From: Halopseudomonas oceani
GTDB lineage: Bacteria; Pseudomonadota; Gammaproteobacteria; Pseudomonadales; Pseudomonadaceae
Assembly (NCBI RefSeq): GCF_002903165.1
Contig: NZ_PPSK01000010.1
Location: 62,001-126,000, forward strand
Direction: 5' to 3'
DNA length: 64,000 nucleotides
Of the stretch, positions 9,695 through 23,380 are shown piece after piece; within the stretch, counting starts at the first letter, position 1; every line of letters starts with the position of its first letter. Under the pieces are notes generated by a model that saw nothing but the letters and a program-made list of their open reading frames with translations, was not told the origin of the DNA and did no database searches. The translations under genes and the position numbers were made by a program.

Positions 9695-10354
9695 ATGGAG
9701 GTTGCTGTGCCTGACCTGCACAACGAATTTGCTAAGAGCCGTTTTTTCAACCAAGCCCGGATGGACCGTCGATCAGCCGACGCGCTGGTCGGGCTCGCTG
9801 CCGGGATTGTGGCTGATGGTGTAGTGAGCCAGTCAGAGGCGCTGTTTCTGCGTGACTGGCTGGAAGCCAACCTGGTGCATTTGGATGACCCTGTGGTGAA
9901 TCTGTTGTACCAGCGTCTGAACCTGATGCTTGCAGATAGCGTGTTGGACGCTGAAGAGGCGAGTGAACTGCTGGGCATGCTGCATAGCTTTGCCGGGCTT
10001 AGCCTTGAGAAGCCCCTACCTACCGAACACACCTTTACTGCCCCCAATGACTTGCCGCTTTGCGACCCCGCCCCTGATTTGATCTGCGCTGGCCGGTCTT
10101 TTGTATTTACCGGCGTCATGGCGTTTGGCCCCCGCAAAGAGTGCCAGCAGATTGTGCTGGACCTGGGCGGCGAGATCGCCAAAGGCGTGAGCAAAAAGGT
10201 GCACTACCTGGTTGTGGGTAGCGTTGGTAACGAGCAATGGCGGCACAGCAGCTACGGGCTGAAGATCATGAAGGCGGTGGAACTGCGGGAGGCTGGGGTG
10301 CCGATCGCTATTGTGGGTGAGGATCATTGGCAGCGGGTGCTGTTCGGCAGCTAA
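9695..10354 (+). CDS. BRCT-domain protein with N-terminal TerB-like helical domain
   Basis: A 219-residue protein. Residues 15-105 are all-helical and acidic (DALVGLAAGIVADGVVSQSE, then a paired ADSVLDAEEASELLGML), like TerB/DjlA-type domains. Residues about 130-215 are a BRCT domain of the NAD-dependent ligase kind (FVFTGVMAFGPRKECQQIV, then GGEIAKGVSKKVHYLVVG). BRCT domains bind DNA ends or partner proteins. It lies in the cargo island between repressor and late genes, so a host-protection role is possible. Confidence 0.75.
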   Translation: MEVAVPDLHNEFAKSRFFNQARMDRRSADALVGLAAGIVADGVVSQSEALFLRDWLEANLVHLDDPVVNLLYQRLNLMLADSVLDAEEASELLGMLHSFAGLSLEKPLPTEHTFTAPNDLPLCDPAPDLICAGRSFVFTGVMAFGPRKECQQIVLDLGGEIAKGVSKKVHYLVVGSVGNEQWRHSSYGLKIMKAVELREAGVPIAIVGEDHWQRVLFGS

Positions 10355-10388
10355 CGCCTATCGTGATTATTTAAATGGATAGTTATTT

Positions 10389-11276
10389 ATGGCTAAGCTT
10401 TTCAGCGAAACATTTTCTATTTCTTACGATGACGAAAACGGCGACTACAGTCGTCACGAGATTGACGCGGCTGTACTTGGCAAGGCAATTACTGGGGTGA
10501 GCGAATCGGTAAACGCAGTAAACAAAGAGCTGAGCGGCGAAGTGCTTGAGCTGAAGGTCACCACTCCAGCGCGCGAGGGTTCAGTTGAAGTGGTATTTAT
10601 GGCTGTTGCAACCAGCCCTGCCGCGCTGGCTGCTTTGAAGGTTCTTGGCATTACCGGGGTGATCGGAACAGTCGGCGCGGCTTCTGTGCTGGAAATTGTG
10701 AAGCAGATGAAGGGTAAGCGTGTTACCCGCATTGATTTCGATGAAGATGCTGACGAAGCTACCATTGAAGTTGAGGGCGAGCCGCCTATAACCACAACAG
10801 CCAAAGTAGGTCGAATGGCGGTTGACAAGAAAGTACGAGCGTCTATTCACGACTTTATTCAAGCGCCAATAGCAAACAATCCCACTGGTGTGGTGCAAGT
10901 GCTGGATGCTGCCGAGCTGCCTATGCTTCAGTTTAAGTCAGATGAAACTAAATCATTCAACCCGCTGCCGGAAGGGTCGCTTGAAAGCGAAGAAACAAAA
11001 CAGTTCGAAACAACCTGTCATTTCACTCAAGTTAATTTTGAGTCGTCTAAAGGTTGGAGAGTAAAGCTAGGGAATGGAGAAGAGCACCCAGTTGAACTGA
11101 TCGATGAAGCTTTTATGGAACAGGTAAAGCAAAGTAAAAAGTCGTTTACAAAGGATGATCTGTTCGGGATTCTTTTGGAAGTGCATACTCTGCGTAGGCA
11201 AACCAGATCAACGCACACTTATACCGTTGTTGATGTGGTGAAACATTACGCACGCGAAGAAAATAGACTAATATAG
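10389..11276 (+). CDS. Large unknown protein of the three-gene cargo operon
   Basis: A 295-residue protein. The N-terminal third has EIDAAVLGKAITGVSESVNA and then PAREGSVEVVF, a pattern I have seen in uncharacterised prophage proteins (DUF7946-like at most, tentative). Residues 69-100 are strongly hydrophobic (ALAALKVLGITGVIGTVGAA) and may insert in a membrane. Residues 110-295 are charged and beta-rich. The gene is visibly AT-richer than the phage structural genes, a sign of separate transfer. It starts a three-gene operon whose next two products are membrane proteins. Confidence 0.6.
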   Translation: MAKLFSETFSISYDDENGDYSRHEIDAAVLGKAITGVSESVNAVNKELSGEVLELKVTTPAREGSVEVVFMAVATSPAALAALKVLGITGVIGTVGAASVLEIVKQMKGKRVTRIDFDEDADEATIEVEGEPPITTTAKVGRMAVDKKVRASIHDFIQAPIANNPTGVVQVLDAAELPMLQFKSDETKSFNPLPEGSLESEETKQFETTCHFTQVNFESSKGWRVKLGNGEEHPVELIDEAFMEQVKQSKKSFTKDDLFGILLEVHTLRRQTRSTHTYTVVDVVKHYAREENRLI

Positions 11277-11281
11277 TTGTT

Positions 11282-11521
11282 ATGGCTGAGTATAAGGCGG
11301 TTTCGGAGTTCTTGTTTTGGGTCTCGATGATTATGTTGTTACCGGGGCTGTACTACTTTGTGCGAGCCGCTATCAGATATGTTTTTTTTAGGTTTGTATC
11401 GAATGAGAAAGTTGTAATCACTGTCAGGCGCGGCGGTAAGGTCGTGCAGTCGGTTGAGGTTGACTCTACGGGGTATGTTGTTGACCAAATAAGAAAGCGC
11501 TTTGAGGCGGGTGAAGTATGA
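11282..11521 (+). CDS. Small membrane protein, middle gene of cargo operon
   Basis: A 79-residue protein. Residues 8-37 (FLFWVSMIMLLPGLYYFVRA and following) form one or two membrane segments. The soluble C-terminus (KVVITVRRGGKVVQSVEVDS) looks like a small beta structure. It starts five bases after the previous stop and overlaps the next gene by 4 bases (ATGA at 11518), so the three are co-translated. Function unknown; probably a membrane partner of its neighbours. Confidence 0.6.
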   Translation: MAEYKAVSEFLFWVSMIMLLPGLYYFVRAAIRYVFFRFVSNEKVVITVRRGGKVVQSVEVDSTGYVVDQIRKRFEAGEV

Positions 11522-11910
11522 GTAAGTCTCAAACGACACAGGCATACTTTACAGCGGGCATGTCTACTTTGCTCACTTCGATTGGGCTCTACTTCTGTAA
11601 GGGTGATGTTGATTTGATGAAGATGGTCGTACCTGCAGGTGCAGTGGTGGCGCCTTTTCTTACGCTGTTTTTGGTGAAAGTTTTTGCATTTCTTAATGTG
11701 GATACAAATTTGATCAAATATAAGGCAGCTTTGGCGAGCGATCTGAGGAAGCAAAGAAAGATATTAAAAGATCCGCTAATTGATGAGGTGACGAAAGAAG
11801 AGGTGCGCAAGGCGTATGCTCAAACTTCACTGCTGCTTTCATCTGCAAGCCAGGATGTTTTGAATGGCGTAATCACTATTAAGTCGCCTGAAGATAAAAT
11901 TACGGGTTAA
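11518..11910 (+). CDS. Two-span membrane protein, last gene of cargo operon
   Basis: A 130-residue protein with two predicted membrane helices (about residues 9-27 and 34-59, MVVPAGAVVAPFLTLFLVKV) and a basic, helical cytoplasmic tail (ALASDLRKQRKILKDPLIDE). Not recognised. Two-span proteins with a helical tail are common as effectors or sensors in exclusion and defence operons; here that is inference. Its TAA stop overlaps the TAA stop of gene D on the other strand (TTAA), so this transcript converges with the late operon. Confidence 0.6.
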   Translation: MSKSQTTQAYFTAGMSTLLTSIGLYFCKGDVDLMKMVVPAGAVVAPFLTLFLVKVFAFLNVDTNLIKYKAALASDLRKQRKILKDPLIDEVTKEEVRKAYAQTSLLLSSASQDVLNGVITIKSPEDKITG

Positions 11911-13103
11911 TCTGCGCCCTGCAGCCTCCCAAACTCCCGCTTCACCGCCCGCTCTGCACTGGCCTGGCTCGCATACAAGTGAGTCAGGCGCAGAGGGCTG
12001 GTCTGATCCCCTTCTGTTACTGGCTGCTGGTTGCCGTCTTTGTCGCGGTACCAGGCAATCACCCCGGTGTATTGCGTCTCTACCAGGGCGGCCAGGTCTT
12101 CATCTTCTGCCAGTTGGTTTTCCAACTCCAGGGCAACGGTGTAGCCGCTTTCATTCACCTGGTGCATTACCCGCCGGCACAGCCACACCACCGCGCTGAT
12201 CTCCGGTTTGATGCCGCTGAGGCCAAAGGTCATTTCCGGTATCAGGTCGGCCCGGCCACGGGCCAGGGTGTAGCTGAGTGTGGCTGCGCCGCGTTGCAGC
12301 CTGCGCCACTCACTGCGCACGGCCTGCAGGGCGCTGGCCTGGTCTGCGTAGACGTGGCGCAGGGTTTTGACATTGTCATCTGTGCCGATCAGCGCTTCCA
12401 GCCGCTCTGCGCTGTTGGGCTGGTAGTAGTGGGCACGCACGCCGGTGTAGGCATCGCGGTCTGCTTGCAAAAAGCGGTGGTTGTCGCCGCTGGTGCGGGT
12501 GAACTGCACGTGGGGCAGGGGCAGGCCGCTGGCGGTTTTGGCGGCGCCCACGGGGGTGACCAGCAGGTGCCCGGCCTTGATGGTGGCGATGGCGTCGTGC
12601 TCTTGCGCCAGGCGGGTGAGCAGGTTGGCGTCTGACTCGTTGGCCTGGTCCTGATGGGCGAGGGGGAGGGCGGCCAACACCACGTCTATCACCGGTTTGA
12701 GGCTGTAGGCCTCGGCGATGGTGTGCAGCACGTCGCCCAGGGTGACGCTGTGCCAGCTGCGCTCGCGCTTGCGGCTGAGCTCGGCGCGCAGGTCCGCGCT
12801 GCGGGCGCGGATGCTGAGTGTGTCTGGTGCGCCGCTATGCTCGGTTTCGTCTACTACGTAGCTGCCTTTGTACACCAGCCCGGTATCTGACCAGCCCAGC
12901 CACAGATCAACCTGCGCGCGCCGGGGCGGTATGGCCAGCTGGCCGTCGTGGTCTGACAGGGTGATGTCCAGCTGGTCTGCTTCCAGGCCCCTGTTATCGG
13001 TCAGGGTGAGGCTGATCAGCCGCGGGCTGATCTTGCTGGTGATGTCTTGCCCGTTGACGACCACGCGATACGCGGGGGCCGGGTGGCTGCTGAGGTTGAT
13101 CAT
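11907..13103 (-). CDS. D: Tail protein D (baseplate hub, late control protein)
   Basis: A 398-residue protein of the P2 gpD / phage late control family, the gp27-like hub that carries the spike gpV. The N-terminus (PAYRVVVNGQDITSKISPRL) and SLTLTDNRGLEADQLDITLS are diagnostic; length fits P2 gpD. It is the last gene of the FI-FII-E-T-U-D operon and overlaps U by 4 bases. Its stop codon overlaps that of the converging cargo operon. Confidence 0.93.
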   Translation of the reverse strand: MINLSSHPAPAYRVVVNGQDITSKISPRLISLTLTDNRGLEADQLDITLSDHDGQLAIPPRRAQVDLWLGWSDTGLVYKGSYVVDETEHSGAPDTLSIRARSADLRAELSRKRERSWHSVTLGDVLHTIAEAYSLKPVIDVVLAALPLAHQDQANESDANLLTRLAQEHDAIATIKAGHLLVTPVGAAKTASGLPLPHVQFTRTSGDNHRFLQADRDAYTGVRAHYYQPNSAERLEALIGTDDNVKTLRHVYADQASALQAVRSEWRRLQRGAATLSYTLARGRADLIPEMTFGLSGIKPEISAVVWLCRRVMHQVNESGYTVALELENQLAEDEDLAALVETQYTGVIAWYRDKDGNQQPVTEGDQTSPLRLTHLYASQASAERAVKREFGRLQGAD

Positions 13104-17148: not shown

Positions 17149-18321
17149 TCAGGCGTTGATGCGGCTGGCAAAGTCCGCCAGGTAGCGGTCAGTGATGCGC
17201 TGGCGCAGCGTGAGGTTCTCCAGCGGCGGTACCGGCGTGTAGTCGTAGTCGATCAGCAGCTGGCCATCTTTGAGGGTGGCGGCGCTGTTGGCGGCTTCGT
17301 CGTACCAGGCGCTGGCGTCAATGATGTAGCCACCGGCCTTGAGCTCGCGGAACTTGGCGTTGATGCCCTCCAGAATGTCGCGCACCAGACTGGGGTGCAT
17401 GGGCTTGTCTACGGCCCAGAGGTGCGCCTCGGCGATGGTGTCGGCCAGTACCTGGGCGGTGCGGGTGCTGGACTCAAAGGCGAACAGCGGGTCATCGCTG
17501 CAGGTACGCGAGCCCCAGAAGCGGAAGCCGTCAGCGCGCACCAGGGTGGTGATGTCGTTTTCGTTGAGGTAGCCGGCGTCGGTGGCGGGGTTTTGCAGAT
17601 CCCAGTAGACCGGTTTGCTGATGCCGGTAACGCCGTTAACACCGACGTTGGACAGGGTCTTGTGCCAGCCGGTTTGTTGGTCGATTTTGGCGCGCAGACC
17701 GAGGGCGAGCGCCACAGCCGGAATGGTGACCTCGGCGTTGGCGTCGGTATCCCAGCCGGTGAAGTCGGGCCAGACGAGCATCAATTCGCGCGCGCTGAAA
17801 TTCTCGCGGTAGGTGACCGCTTCCTCTTTGGTTTCGCAGCCAGAGCAGCTGGCGTAGGCCATGGCGCGCAGCTGCTGGGCAACGCTGACCAGCTCGGTTG
17901 CTACCGGCAGGGTATCCAGCCCCGGTGCGCCGATAATGCGCGGGGTAACGCCCAGCTGGGTTTTGGCAGCCAGCAGCGCCTTGAGGCCGGTGAACTCGCC
18001 GCCGGCGGTGACCGTGCCGATGACGTTGCTGTTGGTTTCTGCCTCGTCTGCACCTTCAGCCACGCGCACCACTACGGTGACGGGGCTGGCGTTGGCGGCA
18101 ATGGCCTTGAGGGCAATGGCCAGCGTGCCCTCGGTACCGGCGCTGCCGATGGCGCTGAGCACGTCGGTAAGCAGTACGGGCTTGTTGAGCGGGAAGAGGG
18201 TGGCGTCGGCGTCGTCGGCAGTGCACACCAGGCCGAGCACAGCGGTGCTGACGGTGCGAATGGGGCGAACGCCCTCGTTGATCTCGACGACGCGCACGCC
18301 GTGGTGATAAGCGGCTGGCAT
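17149..18321 (-). CDS. FI: Tail sheath protein FI
   Basis: A 390-residue protein of the P2 gpFI family. The N-terminus has HHGVRVVEINEGVRPIRTVS and TAVLGLVCTADDADATLFPL; the C-terminus has AWYDEAANSAATLKDGQLLI and DYDYTPVPPLENLTLRQRIT, both sheath hallmarks. It forms the contractile outer layer of the tail. First gene of the FI-FII-E-T-U-D operon, with a putative Ogr site 75-96 bases upstream. Confidence 0.95.
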   Translation of the reverse strand: MPAAYHHGVRVVEINEGVRPIRTVSTAVLGLVCTADDADATLFPLNKPVLLTDVLSAIGSAGTEGTLAIALKAIAANASPVTVVVRVAEGADEAETNSNVIGTVTAGGEFTGLKALLAAKTQLGVTPRIIGAPGLDTLPVATELVSVAQQLRAMAYASCSGCETKEEAVTYRENFSARELMLVWPDFTGWDTDANAEVTIPAVALALGLRAKIDQQTGWHKTLSNVGVNGVTGISKPVYWDLQNPATDAGYLNENDITTLVRADGFRFWGSRTCSDDPLFAFESSTRTAQVLADTIAEAHLWAVDKPMHPSLVRDILEGINAKFRELKAGGYIIDASAWYDEAANSAATLKDGQLLIDYDYTPVPPLENLTLRQRITDRYLADFASRINA

Positions 18322-18479: not shown

Positions 18480-18716
18480 TCAGGCTTTGATGATGTAGGG
18501 CAGTGATTCGCCGCTGCGATCTGGCAGTAGCGGATCTACGCCCGATACGCCAAAGGGGTTGCCTTGGGCGATCAGCAGGTCGCGCAGGTTGTCGGCGGTG
18601 CCGGCGGCCAGTGCTGAGCCGTCGCACAGCAGCCAGCCGGGTGGCGGTGTGGCGCTTACGGCATAGACCACTTCAACGCCGGGCATGTGCTCCCACATTT
18701 CCAGAACTTGGCTCAT
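18480..18716 (-). CDS. Small tail-collar-like protein
   Basis: A 78-residue protein starting MSQVLEMWEHMPGVEVVYAV. The segment PPPGWLLCDGSAL, then NLRDLLIAQGNPFG and LLPDRSGESLPYIIKA, is the tail-collar pattern normally found at the C-terminus of tail fibres. Here it is a free-standing gene after the fibre chaperone, with a 4-base ATGA overlap. It may be a detached fibre tip or a separate virion decoration. Confidence 0.6.
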   Translation of the reverse strand: MSQVLEMWEHMPGVEVVYAVSATPPPGWLLCDGSALAAGTADNLRDLLIAQGNPFGVSGVDPLLPDRSGESLPYIIKA

Positions 18717-19000
18717 TGCTGTTGCTCCTCGATCAGGGCTTGTACGTCTGGGTTGTCCGCCAGAAAGGCGGCCAGCTTGGCGGCGGGGCTGGGTTGCTCG
18801 GTTTGCTGTGGGCGGTTGACCAGCGCCCAGGCGGCGCCCGTCCAGCGGGGCCACTTGTCGTCCGGCCATTCACCCGGTGGCGGGATTTCTACCGCGCCGG
18901 CGGGCAGCAGGTAGACGCCGGGTTCCAACGGGGATTCGTCGGCCTCAACAGGCCCCAGCAGCAGGCCGGCGCGGTTGGTTTGGTAGACGGTTTTGGTCAT
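18713..19000 (-). CDS. G: Tail fibre assembly protein G-like
   Basis: A 95-residue protein starting MTKTVYQTNRAGLLLGPVEA. PLEPGVYLLPAGAVEIPPPG and WPRWTGAAWALVNRP are typical of phage tail fibre assembly (gpG/Tfa-like) chaperones, which fold or cap the fibre just upstream. P2 G is 175 residues, so this is a short form. I use ATG 19000; an open frame to 19081 overlaps the fibre gene. Confidence 0.7.
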   Translation of the reverse strand: MTKTVYQTNRAGLLLGPVEADESPLEPGVYLLPAGAVEIPPPGEWPDDKWPRWTGAAWALVNRPQQTEQPSPAAKLAAFLADNPDVQALIEEQQQ

Positions 19001-19010
19001 GGTGGTTGCC

Positions 19011-20411
19011 TCAATACTTGATGCAGGCGAGCAGCGCGACGTTGCGCGGGCGGGTTTCGCCGGCGCCGCTATGCACTCCACCAGACTTGCCCATGCTCGG
19101 TTTCTGCGCGGTGAGTGAGCGTGTCATGCGGTAGGCCGGATCGTTCGAGGAAGATCCGTAAAATGTCACATAGTCGTTAGCGTCACGCACCGGGTAGCTA
19201 TTCATGTGGACGATTTCATTTGTGAACAGGATGTGCTCGTGCTCACCAACAGCACCCTGCTGCACGGTGCCAAATACACGCCCGATGTCCACGCCCCGTC
19301 CGTTGTCATGCCCTCGGATAAACTCGCCGCGCAGATCCGGCAGTTTGAAGGTGTTGAAGCCATCACCGGCGCCCCAGCTCTCGCCCAGGGCAGCGAATAG
19401 GCGAGCATACGCAACGCGGCTGACCAGTGCGCCGTTGGCTTTGAGCCAGCCATTCGGCGGCGTGGGCGTGGCGAAGTACGCGACCTGGCCCGCTGGGGCG
19501 AGCAGATCGGATTCCTCTTTGCTGTACACGCCCAGGTGATTACGGCCTGCATCCTTGTCTGGCACGTCGGCCAGGTTGCGGTCGCGTTCCAGCGGGGGCG
19601 AGGCCATATTGCTGGGCTCATTCTGCGCCATCAGCACTTTGGTGCCGGCGGGCCAGCTCTTGCCGAGAATGATTGATGCGTCCTCGTCTGCGGGGTTCTT
19701 CTCCCACTCGGCCGCCAGCGCGCCCTGGTTGATGCGGACGCCTTCGATGTACACCGCCAGCCCGCGTGTGGTGCAGACAGCCAGGTCGATTTGCGTTTGG
19801 CCTGCTGCGAGGGTCTGGCGCTCTTCGATCATATCGACTGTGACGTTGGCGGCGTCGGGATCCTCCCAGTCAACATCGCCGTCAGCGTTGCTCTGTTTGG
19901 TGAGCACCTGGCCCGTGTTGCCGCCGGGCAGCAGCTGGGCGCTGGTGAAGTTGTTCATGATCCAGGTGCGGGTGGCAACGATGGCAGAGGGGTCAATCAG
20001 GAAGGTCACGTCTTCCGCGTTGGTGACCAGAAACTCCATGCGCACCACGGTATCGCTGTAGGCGCCGTCGGCCTCGGCCGGTTTTTGCGCGTCTGGCAGG
20101 TTAGCCACGGCAAACAGAGTGCCGTTGCTGTCGAAGACGCCCACTTCACGCATCACAAAACCGCCAACGCTGACTGGGATAACTAGCTCAACCGTCCAGC
20201 GGTTGGGCTCGCCGGGGTGCTGAGTTGCGCTGTTGATTGTTGCCCGGTAACGCTCGCGCACCAGGCCGGTGGTGAGGACTTCGGGTGCAACTGGGTTGCC
20301 GTTGCCATCACCCACGGCCATTTCTACCAGGTTGATGGGCGAGCCGCTGGCTTGCGCTGCGGCCATCATGGCCAGGCCGGCGGGGGTGTGTACTGTGCGG
20401 TATGCGTTCAT
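19011..20411 (-). CDS. H: Tail fibre protein H-like (DUF3751 N-terminus, collar C-terminus)
   Basis: A 466-residue receptor-binding fibre. Residues 1-150 match the N-terminal tail-collar fibre domain (AYRTVHTPAGLAMMAAAQAS, TGLVRERYRATINSA, VGGFVMREVGVFDSNGTLFA). Residues about 320-400 have a collar domain (PPNGWLKANGALVSRVAYAR; LPDLRGEFIRGHDNGR). The C-terminal part (GGVHSGAGETRPRNVALLAC) resembles long-tail-fibre tips. It attaches to the baseplate through gpI/gpJ. P2 H is longer (669). Confidence 0.85.
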   Translation of the reverse strand: MNAYRTVHTPAGLAMMAAAQASGSPINLVEMAVGDGNGNPVAPEVLTTGLVRERYRATINSATQHPGEPNRWTVELVIPVSVGGFVMREVGVFDSNGTLFAVANLPDAQKPAEADGAYSDTVVRMEFLVTNAEDVTFLIDPSAIVATRTWIMNNFTSAQLLPGGNTGQVLTKQSNADGDVDWEDPDAANVTVDMIEERQTLAAGQTQIDLAVCTTRGLAVYIEGVRINQGALAAEWEKNPADEDASIILGKSWPAGTKVLMAQNEPSNMASPPLERDRNLADVPDKDAGRNHLGVYSKEESDLLAPAGQVAYFATPTPPNGWLKANGALVSRVAYARLFAALGESWGAGDGFNTFKLPDLRGEFIRGHDNGRGVDIGRVFGTVQQGAVGEHEHILFTNEIVHMNSYPVRDANDYVTFYGSSSNDPAYRMTRSLTAQKPSMGKSGGVHSGAGETRPRNVALLACIKY

Positions 20412-20415
20412 GGTG

Positions 20416-21291
20416 TTAGATCCTGTATCTGATGATTACGATGCCGCTGCCGCCGTTTCCGCCCTTGGGGTTGGTGTCTGATCCGCCACCGCCGCCGCCG
20501 CCGGTGTTGGGTAAACCGGCTCCTGCAAACCAATCGCTCCCGGTGTATCTCGCTGCACCTTTACCACCACCGCCTAGTCCGCCAGCCGCACCGCCGCCGC
20601 CGTTAGTACCACCACCACCGCCACCAGCGAAATATTCCGGGGTGCCTCTGATAGAAGAGCTTAAACCATCACCACCATAGGAAAGCGGGCTGTTAGTTGC
20701 ATCGTCCCCGGCCTCACCAGCGCCACCACCACCGCCACCAGTTCGGTAGTTTGTTCCAACTGACTGGGCTAGCGTCCAAATTCCGCCGTCATTACCCTGT
20801 CCGCTGGTTCCGGTAGCTCGCACTGGCGGACTAGATTCAGTCCAACGGCCACCACTGCCACCACCGCTGCCGCCCGACAGGCCAGCAGCTGAACTGATTT
20901 GTGAGCGACCACCGCCACCGCCACCGTCGGCAATCAAGCCGCCCAAAGCTGAGCTTTCACCATTGACGCCGATACCGTAGGTTGCCGAAGCTATGCCACC
21001 AGCCCCCACAACTACCGCATGGCTCCCGGCAGAAATCATGGTTGTGCCTTGCAACATTCCACCGGCACCGCCACCACCGCCGGTATTTGCTCCCCCTCCA
21101 GACCCGCCGCCAGCCACGACCAGATAGTCAACCTCGACCGCTGCCCCGGTAACCTCAAAGCTGCCTGATTCGGTAAAGGTGTGAACCCTGTATGCGATGC
21201 CGCCAACGTCGATATCCGTGACCGTGCCGCCGGTTGCCGCTGCCCCGGTAGCGGCTGGTGCATTGGCGCTGGCTATGACCCCCCGAATCAC
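20416..21291 (-). CDS. Glycine-rich tail tip/adhesin-like protein
   Basis: A 291-residue protein. Residues 20-60 form a beta segment (GGIAYRVHTFTESGSFEVTG). From about residue 70 it is dominated by glycine runs (many GGGGG and GGGGGG blocks) and ends GGNGGSGIVIIRYRI, the signature of glycine-rich domain proteins related to phage adhesins such as T4-type gp38. I use GTG 21291, which overlaps the previous stop as GTGA. It probably contacts the receptor. The glycine runs could allow slippage and host-range change. Confidence 0.75.
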   Translation of the reverse strand: MIRGVIASANAPAATGAAATGGTVTDIDVGGIAYRVHTFTESGSFEVTGAAVEVDYLVVAGGGSGGGANTGGGGGAGGMLQGTTMISAGSHAVVVGAGGIASATYGIGVNGESSALGGLIADGGGGGGRSQISSAAGLSGGSGGGSGGRWTESSPPVRATGTSGQGNDGGIWTLAQSVGTNYRTGGGGGGAGEAGDDATNSPLSYGGDGLSSSIRGTPEYFAGGGGGGTNGGGGAAGGLGGGGKGAARYTGSDWFAGAGLPNTGGGGGGGSDTNPKGGNGGSGIVIIRYRI

Positions 21292-21809
21292 GCTGCAGCC
21301 TCCAGCGAGCCAAACAGCGTCCACAGATCCGCTCCCAGGCGCTTGAGGGTGACGGGGGAGCCCTTCTTGCGAGTGGTCAATGTCTCTTCGGTGATGATGG
21401 TGACGGCGCTGGCGGCGATGGTGACTTGGCCGTCGCCGATCTGCTGAATGTAAATCTCGGTGTTATCCGGCCAGGCGACGGTGGCCTGGGCTGGCAGGGT
21501 GAGGGTGACGGCTGCGGCGCTATCCACGGCCAGGTATTGGCTGGCGTCGGCCAGTACCAGGGCGCGGCTGGCGGCGACGGTTTGCACCGGCACCGGGGCG
21601 GGTTTGGCCTCCAGCGCGCTGAGGCGCTGCAGGATGGCGGCGGTGTCGAACTCGTCACCCACGGCGGCGCGCAGTTCGGCCATCAGCTTGGCGAAGCTGT
21701 CGACGGGGCCGCCTTCGGTTTCTGCCGTGGCGTTCTCGTCGCCGTGGACTATCAGATGCGCCAGGGTGACGTCTGCCTCGAATTGTTCAACGCTGTTGTA
21801 CAGGCTCAT
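21288..21809 (-). CDS. Tail fibre-associated baseplate protein
   Basis: A 173-residue protein starting MSLYNSVEQFEADVTLAHLI. The N-terminal VHGDENATAETEGGPVDSFA is a tail fibre attachment pattern seen in Pseudomonas P2-like phages. Residues 85-170 (LVLADASQYLAVDSAAAVTL, then TVAWPDNTEIYIQQIGDGQV) form a beta-rich domain like those at fibre stalks. It probably links the glycine-rich adhesin to the baseplate. Position directly after gpI fits. Confidence 0.65.
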   Translation of the reverse strand: MSLYNSVEQFEADVTLAHLIVHGDENATAETEGGPVDSFAKLMAELRAAVGDEFDTAAILQRLSALEAKPAPVPVQTVAASRALVLADASQYLAVDSAAAVTLTLPAQATVAWPDNTEIYIQQIGDGQVTIAASAVTIITEETLTTRKKGSPVTLKRLGADLWTLFGSLEAAA

Positions 21810-21813
21810 GTGG

Positions 21814-22467
21814 TTACCAGTAGCCCGGTGCGGGCAGTGTTGTGTGAATGAGGGTGTGCAGCCGGTTGGTAGCGTTTTGCGTCTGCGCTTGGCCGTTGGC
21901 CTGCGCCTCCATGAGCAGCGCCAGACTACTCACGGCGTAGGTGACGCCGACGTCGTGCCCGCTGACGCTGACAGCAGCACTGCGCAGCGTGGCCACGGTG
22001 GTGGCGCTGAGCTGGGCTAGGGTCATGTGGCTGCGCAGGTTTTTGGATTGCTCCAGCACGGCGATGACACGGTGCAGGTTCTCCAGGGTGACCGGGTACT
22101 GGCTCGCGTTGATCAGAAGATGGAAGGTGCCGGGTTCGCCCTGCGGGATCTGCGCGAACCACTCTTGCACGCGCACGTTGATGCCGATGCCGGCCAGCCC
22201 AGCGCGTACCGCGCCAATGGTTCCTTTGTGCCGGTGCACGGCAATTGCAGCGGCAATAGCGCCGCGCCGTTGGTCTTCTGCCCAGTTGGTGTCCCACTCG
22301 TCTACCGAATACTCCCAGGCCAGCCACGGCAGCAGGGCCTCGGGGGCGGTGTCTGCGTCGTGTAGGGTGCGGTGCGGCACTGGCAGCGCGGTCAGCCGCG
22401 CAGCACTGGCTGCCAGCGCACGCTCGGCGGCGCTGGCGTTGGGCGGTAGCAGCGAGGCATCAGACAT
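21814..22467 (-). CDS. I: Baseplate protein I
   Basis: A 217-residue P2 gpI family protein (PF09684-type tail protein). The core LPWLAWEYSVDEWDTNWAED, then RRGAIAAAIAVHRHKGTIGA and V-x-AGLAGIGINVRVQEWFAQ are diagnostic. I start at ATG 22467 (MSDASLLPPN), which overlaps gene J by 8 bases. It joins baseplate wedge and tail fibre. Confidence 0.92.
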   Translation of the reverse strand: MSDASLLPPNASAAERALAASAARLTALPVPHRTLHDADTAPEALLPWLAWEYSVDEWDTNWAEDQRRGAIAAAIAVHRHKGTIGAVRAGLAGIGINVRVQEWFAQIPQGEPGTFHLLINASQYPVTLENLHRVIAVLEQSKNLRSHMTLAQLSATTVATLRSAAVSVSGHDVGVTYAVSSLALLMEAQANGQAQTQNATNRLHTLIHTTLPAPGYW

Positions 22468-23380
22468 CAGGCACCTCGGCCAGGGTGATGTTGATGGCAG
22501 TGCAATAGGCGGCCTCGGCATCGCTGATGGCCAGCAGCCTGCCCTCGGCATCAGCCGCCGGCGTGGCGCCGATCAGGCGCACGCGCTGAGCGCCAGGCTT
22601 GTGCAGTGCGGCCAGCACGCCGGACAAGGTCACGTCGTACCCCAGGCGGTGAACGCTATCCACGTAGGTTTGCAGGGCGGCATGCGCAGCAGCCACAACC
22701 AGACCGGCGTCGGGGCCTGGGTAGGGGGTGAGCTCTGCCTCTATCTGGTATTCAACGATGGAAGCCGACAGCACAGTGACCAGGTCTGTCATGGGCCGCA
22801 CTTGTTCTGCGTTGAGCGCGGCCAGCACGTCTGCCAACAGAAACTCATCAGCAGTACCGTCAGCAGTGCGGGACAGCACATAGACGGTGACCTGCGTAGG
22901 TGCGGGGCTGGTGGCTGAAGCGTCGCGCACCTGCCCGCTGGCTGACAGCGCGTGATAGATGTAACTGCCGGTTGAGCCTGCCGTTGTGAACGCCTCAAAG
23001 CTGAGCTGGATGCGCCGGCGGAAATCGTCGTCTGGCTCATGGGTGGCGGGCACCGGCGGAATGGCGGCGGCGTCACCGGGGTCTACGACCAGGCGCTCGA
23101 CATCGTAGCGGGCGCCGATGTGGTCCAGGTCGGCATCGTCGGCAAAGGCCAGCATGGTTGCGAGGGCAGACTCATTAATGCGTTGACGCAGGTGCAGCTC
23201 ACGATAGGCCAGCACCTCGGCGACTTTATAGGCCGGGTCAGACTCGACCAGGGCGTCGAACTCTGGATACACCCCCTGCAGGTCCGCAAGCACGTTGGCC
23301 AGTATGGTCTCAAAGTCCAGTTGCTCGATGACGTCTGGCGGCGGCAGCTGCGACAGATCAACCCCTGTAAACGCGCTCAT
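22460..23380 (-). CDS. J: Baseplate assembly protein J
   Basis: A 306-residue protein of the P2 gpJ / Mu gp47 family. DLSQLPPPDVIEQLDFETIL at the start and ELHLRQRINESALATMLAFA, then ADDADLDHIGARYDVERLVV are typical. It is the wedge protein at the outer baseplate. Length matches P2 (302). Its start overlaps W by 4 bases. Confidence 0.93.
   Translation of the reverse strand: MSAFTGVDLSQLPPPDVIEQLDFETILANVLADLQGVYPEFDALVESDPAYKVAEVLAYRELHLRQRINESALATMLAFADDADLDHIGARYDVERLVVDPGDAAAIPPVPATHEPDDDFRRRIQLSFEAFTTAGSTGSYIYHALSASGQVRDASATSPAPTQVTVYVLSRTADGTADEFLLADVLAALNAEQVRPMTDLVTVLSASIVEYQIEAELTPYPGPDAGLVVAAAHAALQTYVDSVHRLGYDVTLSGVLAALHKPGAQRVRLIGATPAADAEGRLLAISDAEAAYCTAINITLAEVPDV

Follow-up and report, generated by a model that had tools for sequence, protein, structure and literature searches.

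Separate stalk and tip genes in the tail-fibre locus of a Halopseudomonas oceani prophage suggest a recurrent docking module in phage tails

The fibre locus

The tail-fibre locus described here belongs to a P2-like prophage of Halopseudomonas oceani. It lies in a stretch of 64,000 nucleotides (nt; assembly GCF_002903165.1, contig NZ_PPSK01000010.1, positions 62,001 to 126,000) which was analysed as a whole and is called the window. On the minus strand, and following baseplate gene I, are genes for a linker, a glycine-rich protein, a gpH-type tail fibre, a small assembly-like protein and a collar-like protein (Table 1). A preliminary description of the same DNA had listed this five-gene tail locus, and all five genes are indeed present. 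Our main subject is the linker and glycine-rich genes, and the joint that their products may form.

The large fibre matches PF12571 (E = 9.2e-47) and the Collar domain (E = 2.7e-20) and is of the P2 gpH type, with additional genes between I and H; the position these occupy, and particularly that of the gene after the linker, is called the slot. The collar-like protein is assigned to PF07484 (E = 6.5e-6, 26.4 bits against a cut-off of 24). The 95-residue assembly-like protein has weak matches to phrog_1807 (E = 1.2e-7) and phrog_1766 (E = 3.1e-7) and none to a Pfam or NCBIfam family. Nor does the N-terminal part of the linker match any Pfam family.

We take the glycine-rich gene to start at the GTG at 21291; an open reading frame (ORF) of 302 aa from 21324 uses an earlier GTG. 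The 4-nt overlap of the two genes could mean that linker and glycine-rich protein are one fibre chain, made by programmed frameshifting or stop read-through, and fused versions of anchor and glycine-rich part do exist (in G504, locus L074, and in five gpH-type fusions, see below). We consider this improbable. The sequence GGAGG lies 7 nt upstream of the start in all five loci of the window's family, the four relatives (L003-L006, below) having it at equal spacing and ATGA in place of the window's GTGA. Across phages the gaps between the corresponding genes are -4, -1, 0 and +1 to +4, that is, in every frame. Furthermore, the first residue of a conserved peptide is the one encoded by the start codon, and a slippery heptamer was not seen by eye at the window's overlap.

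Table 1. Features of the fibre block and its flanks (window coordinates; (-), minus strand)
Feature	Position	Strand	Remarks
Baseplate gene J	22460-23380		Flanks fibre block
Baseplate gene I	21814-22479		Flanks fibre block
Linker gene	21288-21809	(-)	173 aa
Linker N-terminal part, presumed tail anchor	21594-21809	(-)	Residues 1-72; similar to G471 (L068) slot protein
Linker C-terminal domain, proposed docking domain	21291-21593	(-)	Residues 73-173; recurs at C-termini of phage tail proteins
Shine-Dalgarno-like GGAGG	21299-21303	(-)	7 nt upstream of glycine-rich start codon; read directly
GTGA overlap	21288-21291	(-)	Glycine-rich start codon 21291-21289; linker stop (TGA) 21290-21288
Tip N-terminal octapeptide MIRGVIAS, proposed docking peptide	21268-21291	(-)	Related starts in other phages
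Glycine-rich tip protein	20416-21291	(-)	291 aa; Gly_rich_2 domain, residues 42-290 = 20422-21168
gpH-type tail fibre	19011-20411	(-)	466 aa; PF12571 N-terminus; Collar domain, residues 308-365
Exchanged gpH tip	19056-19268	(-)	About residues 382-452; low-identity island versus relatives
Small fibre-assembly-like protein	18713-19000	(-)	95 aa; weak PHROG matches
Free collar-like protein	18480-18716	(-)	78 aa; PF07484
Sheath gene	17149-18321		Other flank of fibre block

Two exchange islands in close relatives

IMG/VR contains one 100% identical copy of the locus and four contigs (L003-L006) in which the linker is 82-93% identical and the gene order of the fibre block is the same. From J to the sheath gene, DNA identity between the window and these four is 60-100% per 100-nt bin outside two islands (bins straddling island edges are intermediate, and L005 is without most of J and I). 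The first island is the slot gene, with 22-46% identity, and the second is the part of gpH encoding its last 70 or so residues, with 35-48%. The comparison of close relatives that had been suggested for this region shows that only the slot gene and the gpH tip are replaced within the block.

Beyond its first residues, the slot protein is Gly_rich_2 in the window, Lcl_C-like in L003, L005 and L006 (PF07603, E = 0.094, no match and E = 0.24, respectively, all below cut-off) and LamG-like in L004 (PF13385, E = 5.9e-6, 26.9 bits, just under the cut-off of 27.6). The start MIRG and a few further residues are kept in the relatives, as MIRG[TV][IV]AA. Three unrelated tip types are found behind one constant linker. 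Across the five loci, identity is 84-98% for the gpH bodies; for the gpH tips it is 38-42% from one type to another and 98-100% inside the Lcl_C type. The assembly-like and collar-like proteins of the four relatives are 86-96% and 88-95% identical, respectively, to those of the window, the former staying constant while the gpH tip changes; nothing therefore marks either as a specificity module.

L003 (9069-9380) and L005 (3349-3660) also carry an extra ORF between the collar-like and sheath genes, starting MIKPN.(T/S)HIAGLRLMHHVFAYNLAAGS, which is absent from the window.

A domain at the C-termini of tail proteins

The last 100 or so residues of the linker recur at the ends of tail proteins in phages of Gordonia, Brevundimonas, Achromobacter, Stenotrophomonas, Sphingobium and Erythrobacter. 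A tblastn search with the last 101 residues matched 234 phage records, 201 of them from Gordonia phages. Among 22 records picked for diversity the match ends at most four residues from the stop codon in 18 (Camerico, with a stop within the domain, is not one of these), and EliS-L02 and RXM contain a second copy of the domain ending 3 aa from the C-terminus. Two other domain members used as queries added seven further phages, giving a set of 29; a profile of 19 domain sequences matches within 15 aa of the C-terminus in 27 of these 29 loci. This last figure is partly circular, since 13 of the C-termini are inside the profile, and the uncircular support comes from the tblastn result and the IMG/VR test below. 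Across phage groups the domain is 29-43% identical to that of the window.

A profile of linker residues 75-173 also matches the end of a 492-aa gene product in G554 (E = 2.2e-4, searched among 17 proteins and 3400 decoys). By eye, this domain also seemed to resemble what precedes the glycine-rich part in single-chain fibres; the likeness was not retained, the gene of G554 alone having profile support. None of the 19 domain members matches a Pfam family. Against all PDB sequences the domain profile produced no match to gp10 or another phage protein (best E = 0.031, an antibody construct), and by sequence search it was not recognised as a T4gp10-like docking domain. No entry listed by literature searches named either the domain or the octapeptide, which does not prove that neither is in print. 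Few genomes of the host's order have the domain (four of 390, its own included) or the linker (two of 390; one of 37 genomes in the genus), and profile scans of the genome contigs with linker and gpH alignments found nothing.

The gene after a domain-terminated gene begins at -4 to +5 nt in 23 of 28 cases (R16L located by hand), compared with 62 of 125 background pairs, a modest excess. These next genes, usually within a few bases, encode unrelated tips, often of sugar-binding type. They include the glycine-rich ALK_LTK_GRD (Gurke, E = 3.8e-13; Kabachok, E = 0.0019, below cut-off), LamG (EliS-L02, E = 5.2e-41), F5/8 type C (E = 1.7e-30 in Lacusarx and 5.5e-16 in Sonora, whose tip also matches ALK_LTK_GRD at E = 9.5e-10), a Peptidase_S11-like protein (Tedan, E = 1.9e-9) and an Lcl_C-like one (PMBT3, E = 4.7e-4, below cut-off); RXM, Motura, PinkBerry and R16L are among those without a Pfam match. 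In Gordonia phages the first 12 residues of the tips average 66% identity (random 12-mers 11%, 95th percentile 33%) and the domain 72%, while the tip remainders are less than 35% identical in 57 of 78 pairs (mean 23%).

Two annotations deserve comment. In Gordonia phage Camerico (L116:3764) the annotated gene stops about 12 residues short of the domain end and the match continues past the stop. In Gordonia phage BaxterFox (L126, 3767-3846) the annotated tip start leaves a gap of 78; it is probably placed too late, because relatives have MVLPAPRFRTTRK about 25 residues earlier.

A short peptide at the start of the tips

Tips of the window's family start MIRG(V/T)(I/V)A(S/A), and a more general form, MIxG(I/V/T)(I/V/T)A(S/A), is found in the window and several phages: MITGITAS in Motura, MILGIIAS in Sonora, MIPGIIAS in Lacusarx and MIHGIVAS in R16L. 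The association of peptide and domain was assessed in IMG/VR, which was scanned for MIxGI(I/V)AS as three DNA patterns (49 + 45 + 14 = 108 matches). Usable ORFs of at least 60 aa numbered 44, leaving out 22 members of an unrelated 60-aa family and five others with the upstream region cut off; L174, likewise cut off upstream, was not counted. Of the 44, 21 directly follow a gene terminated by the domain, which ends 1-3 aa from that gene's end, with gaps of -4, -1 or +3. The domain is upstream of none of the 37 pattern ORFs shorter than 60 aa (Fisher p = 2.0e-7) and of none of the 21 members of the unrelated family with a visible upstream region (p = 4.0e-5). A permuted-peptide control gave 26 matches, eight usable, again with no domain upstream (0/8), nor was it found in any of the 1291 ORFs of those loci. 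MIxGI(I/V)AS is thus statistically linked to an upstream domain gene.

In all, 24 of the 4929 ORFs in the pattern loci contain the domain, always within 7 aa of the C-terminus. For L238, one of three such ORFs without an adjoining pattern match, the next tip, at +3, reads as glycine-rich-like. A profile built from five window-type linkers alone recovers 22 of the 24, and one built without the window family all 24.

When 38 tips were compared beyond residue 14 they fell into 24 clusters, a short N-terminal peptide being borne by otherwise unrelated tips; 24 is probably an overcount, because low-complexity masking splits the glycine-rich tips. Two loci reproduce the window's exact design, the domain followed by MIxGI(I/V)AS on a Gly_rich_2 tip (L206, E = 5.6e-17; L248, E = 5.1e-16). 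Elsewhere the peptide precedes SPRY (L199, E = 1.5e-13), a SASA esterase (L176, E = 6.5e-24) or EPTP (L228, E = 2.1e-13), and the tips of L197, L242, L212 and L209 have no Pfam match.

The shared tip N-terminus and linker C-terminus might be mere conserved recombination joints, involving no docking, and the exchange boundaries do fall at the linker/tip junction. The octapeptide is kept while its codons vary synonymously between phages, however, so that conservation acts on the protein and not on the DNA, and the divergence of the domain between phage groups leaves little DNA homology for recombination. Joints alone are therefore a quite unlikely explanation, and the stalk-end and tip-start signature, present in many unrelated phages, is probably a plug for swapping host-recognition parts.

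The 60-aa family set aside above is a protein of 60-61 aa beginning MIIGIIASALIGLxAWNLNQTFNL..., present in 22 copies (L147, L160, L163 and others) with no docking domain in the preceding gene. The octapeptide in it is a chance likeness or belongs to a membrane segment.

The slot in wider relatives

A gpH-like match is present in 135 of 298 family genomes, and 16 regions were taken for gene order (L070-L072 and parts of L069 and L073 being left out of the reading). Slot contents differ widely, with fold names given by eye: an SGNH-like protein on an anchor in L065, an anchor with a C-type-lectin-like protein in L068, a single-chain anchor with a glycine-rich tip in L074 (G504) and an anchor with a β-propeller-like repeat protein in L073 and L075. 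L066 (the same as L019) has a diversity-generating retroelement (DGR) there, and the cultured Stutzerimonas phage ZRG1 an SGNH/GDSL hydrolase gene. The gpH tips of L073 and L074 are 98% identical and the C-termini of their slot proteins unrelated; the slot is therefore exchangeable on its own. The idea in the preliminary description of two separate recognition modules gains support from these comparisons, both from the two islands and from this independent variation of the slot.

A profile of the linker's N-terminal residues 1-72 matches residues 4-67 of the slot protein of L068 (genome G471; E = 4.9e-12), with 42% identity over 59 aligned columns in hhalign. Homology with the anchors of L065 and L073-L075 was also considered and received no profile support.

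It could be argued that gpH is the sole host recogniser and that the slot protein is an accessory, be it an enzyme, a decoration or a tail-tip cap, dispensable for specificity. In L067 gpH directly follows gpI, without a slot gene, and some slot or tip proteins look enzymatic (the SGNH protein of ZRG1, the SASA esterase of L176). On the other hand, the slot is the most variable stretch, it mostly encodes adhesin-type or carbohydrate-binding-type folds, and in a related prophage it holds a DGR together with its target. An accessory role seems unlikely, if less so than the other alternatives weighed here.

The DGR just mentioned (L019:4305-7310, also L066, genome G008) lies between I and H of a same-genus P2-like prophage, beside a full gpH. 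It has bAvd (E = 6.3e-31), a reverse transcriptase (RT; E = 1.6e-19) and a target that is FGE-sulfatase-like at E = 0.0019, below cut-off. Template and variable repeats (TR/VR) differ at 11 core positions, ten of which have A in the template. According to PMC10612066, DGRs are otherwise unobserved in P2-like phages. A search of the window's fibre block alone recognised no RT, accessory protein or TR/VR pair.

In L065 (genome G002) the sheath is 99.5% identical to the window's, H 59%, and the slot protein different, the mark of a recent exchange whose boundary lies close to where H ends.

Proposed arrangement

We propose, with a probability of about two in three, that the locus builds two receptor-binding devices. 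The first would be a standard P2 gpH-type fibre bearing its own exchangeable tip. The second would be a two-piece fibre or spike, in which the N-terminus of the linker joins the tail and its C-terminus forms a docking domain of about 100 aa. The glycine-rich tip would be translated separately, with a ribosome-binding site of its own where the genes overlap (GTGA), and its first residues, MIRGVIAS, would plug into the docking domain, leaving the remainder, here a Gly_rich_2 adhesin, to contact the cell. With stalk and tip joined only via a short peptide, unrelated tips could be swapped by recombination. Our inferences from sequence concern the physical docking and the part played in it by the peptide, as well as oligomeric state and receptor binding.

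The generalization from this locus is put forward with less assurance, and we favour it only slightly: that tail tips follow a widespread exchange standard, without a name as yet, in which the stalk ends in a ~100-aa docking domain at its C-terminus and the tip begins with a peptide specific to its lineage. For proteobacterial and environmental phages this peptide would be MIxG(I/V/T)(I/V/T)A(S/A). Through the standard, contractile-tail, siphovirus-type and jumbo phages would fit one kind of stalk with unrelated adhesins, lectin-like domains and esterases.

Several observations weigh against these proposals. The octapeptide is not universal: Gordonia tips begin MVLPN.RFR or similar, Brevundimonas ones MIIPGFYAAAR, and others differ. 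As many as 23 of the 44 pattern ORFs have no domain upstream, and the 21 loci that do include four near-duplicate-looking pairs, leaving 17 distinct. The 29 phages were hand-picked with diversity in view, and a good many are Gordonia phages related to one another; two, PMBT3 and HTN2, carry 113 and 39 aa beyond the domain, and in Mesorhizobium phage Cp1R7A-A1 the C-terminal domain is followed by a holin gene. Since short gaps are common in background pairs too, overlap alone says little. The five loci of the window's family show three combinations, in which slot type and gpH tip type vary in step, so that the independence of the two modules rests on L073 and L074. Finally, all support comes from sequence; AlphaFold models had a mean pLDDT (predicted local distance difference test) of 39.9 for the linker and 35.0 for the glycine-rich protein, too low to be of use.

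There are precedents for the components of such an arrangement. In lactococcal phage TP901-1 the support protein BppU carries a docking part at its C-terminus, and the receptor-binding protein (RBP) BppL is encoded separately and exchangeable. The proteins and hosts are different, and the likeness to the window is drawn at the level of design.

Short-peptide docking of exchangeable RBPs on T4gp10-like domains is known from K1-5, G7C and KP32 (PMC6872550). There, as with window-type tips, differing RBPs (of K1-5/SP6, G7C and KP32) share a short conserved N-terminal peptide, thought to hold them on the adapter domain of a second tail protein. It is a hepta- or undecapeptide in K1-5 and not the same from one phage group to the next. 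The window's domain is different, without a name, and lies at the extreme C-terminus with the tip gene directly next; its peptide is MIxG(I/V/T)(I/V/T)A(S/A), and it goes with tips of Gly-rich, LamG, F5/8C, Lcl_C-like or other types. Pseudoalteromonas phages ACA1 and ACA2 likewise combine a P2-like tail with a baseplate-binding part and an antireceptor that are separate polypeptides, the latter modulated by a DGR as in L019/L066 (PMC10612066). The window, in contrast, has a full gpH as well, has no RT gene among its fibre genes, and changes its tip through replacement of the gene for it.

Glycine-rich adhesins offer two further parallels. The gp38 protein of T2-type phages and S16 (PMC12892980) is a separately encoded glycine-rich adhesin on the fibre of another gene, with constant and hypervariable parts; gp38 homologues keep one fold, whereas window-type tips are unrelated folds with a short common N-terminal peptide. 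Pam3 gp24 (PMC9608196) has a glycine-rich distal domain (39% Gly, compared with 37.5% over residues 53-284 of the window's glycine-rich protein) proposed to bind the receptor, but is a single-chain fibre with a dedicated chaperone, unlike the separate tip chain of the window. Modular exchange of fibre domains is general (PMC10684548).

If the proposal is right, a simple sequence rule would find receptor-binding tips now listed as hypothetical, even where no domain is recognisable. It would also account for unrelated folds on one stalk, and turn into a testable question whether the connectors of recognition parts are standardized among phages.

The glycine-rich domain and the question of slippage

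The glycine-rich protein is a clear member of Gly_rich_2 (PF21722; E = 5.9e-23, 82.5 bits against a cut-off of 24.3, covering profile positions 3-226 of 226). Glycine accounts for 95 of its 291 residues, and for 37.5% over residues 53-284. A phmmer search of the PDB, which bears on a polyglycine II (PGII) helix sandwich like that of gp38, found no match, and a tblastn search of phages nothing, low-complexity filtering being a likely reason for the latter.

PF21722 is found in 16 of 198 family genomes, above cut-off in 13. In five of the 12 other above-cut-off cases it is fused to a gpH-type N-terminus (G552, G029, G499, G448 and G548), in genes that sit right after I or another fibre gene. One case has it on a slot-type anchor (G504), four on other phage fibre-like proteins (G525, G183, G500 and G531) and one stand-alone (G554), with a 4-nt overlap with the end of the domain-terminated 492-aa gene; G540 looks like a non-phage secreted protein. 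Below cut-off, G461 is fibre-like and G528 and G520 look unrelated (Hcp-like and FimV-like by eye). We take Gly_rich_2 to be a fibre-tip domain, and solved fibres with glycine-rich host-recognising tips are represented by Pam3 gp24 and T2-type/S16 gp38 in the papers cited above.

The preliminary description had called the glycine runs slip-prone and envisaged a fast-changing tip. The gene does encode ten runs of at least three glycines and has a few short triplet repeats. However, its longest perfect triplet tandem is 15 nt, a length reached in 18.6% of 1000 synonymous shuffles permuting the gene's own Gly codons, and Tandem Repeats Finder (TRF) reports only short, weak arrays. A triplet slip would keep the frame, and the sole other copy found is 100% identical, so that length variants have not been seen. 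Rapid change through slippage is accordingly very improbable. A fast-changing tip does find support in another form, as exchange of whole modules and, in the related prophage, as a DGR in the slot.

Beside the tail genes, window positions 10001-12000 have a GC content of 48.8%, compared with 58.8% and 66.0% in the adjoining 2-kb steps; this drop may possibly mark a recent insertion.

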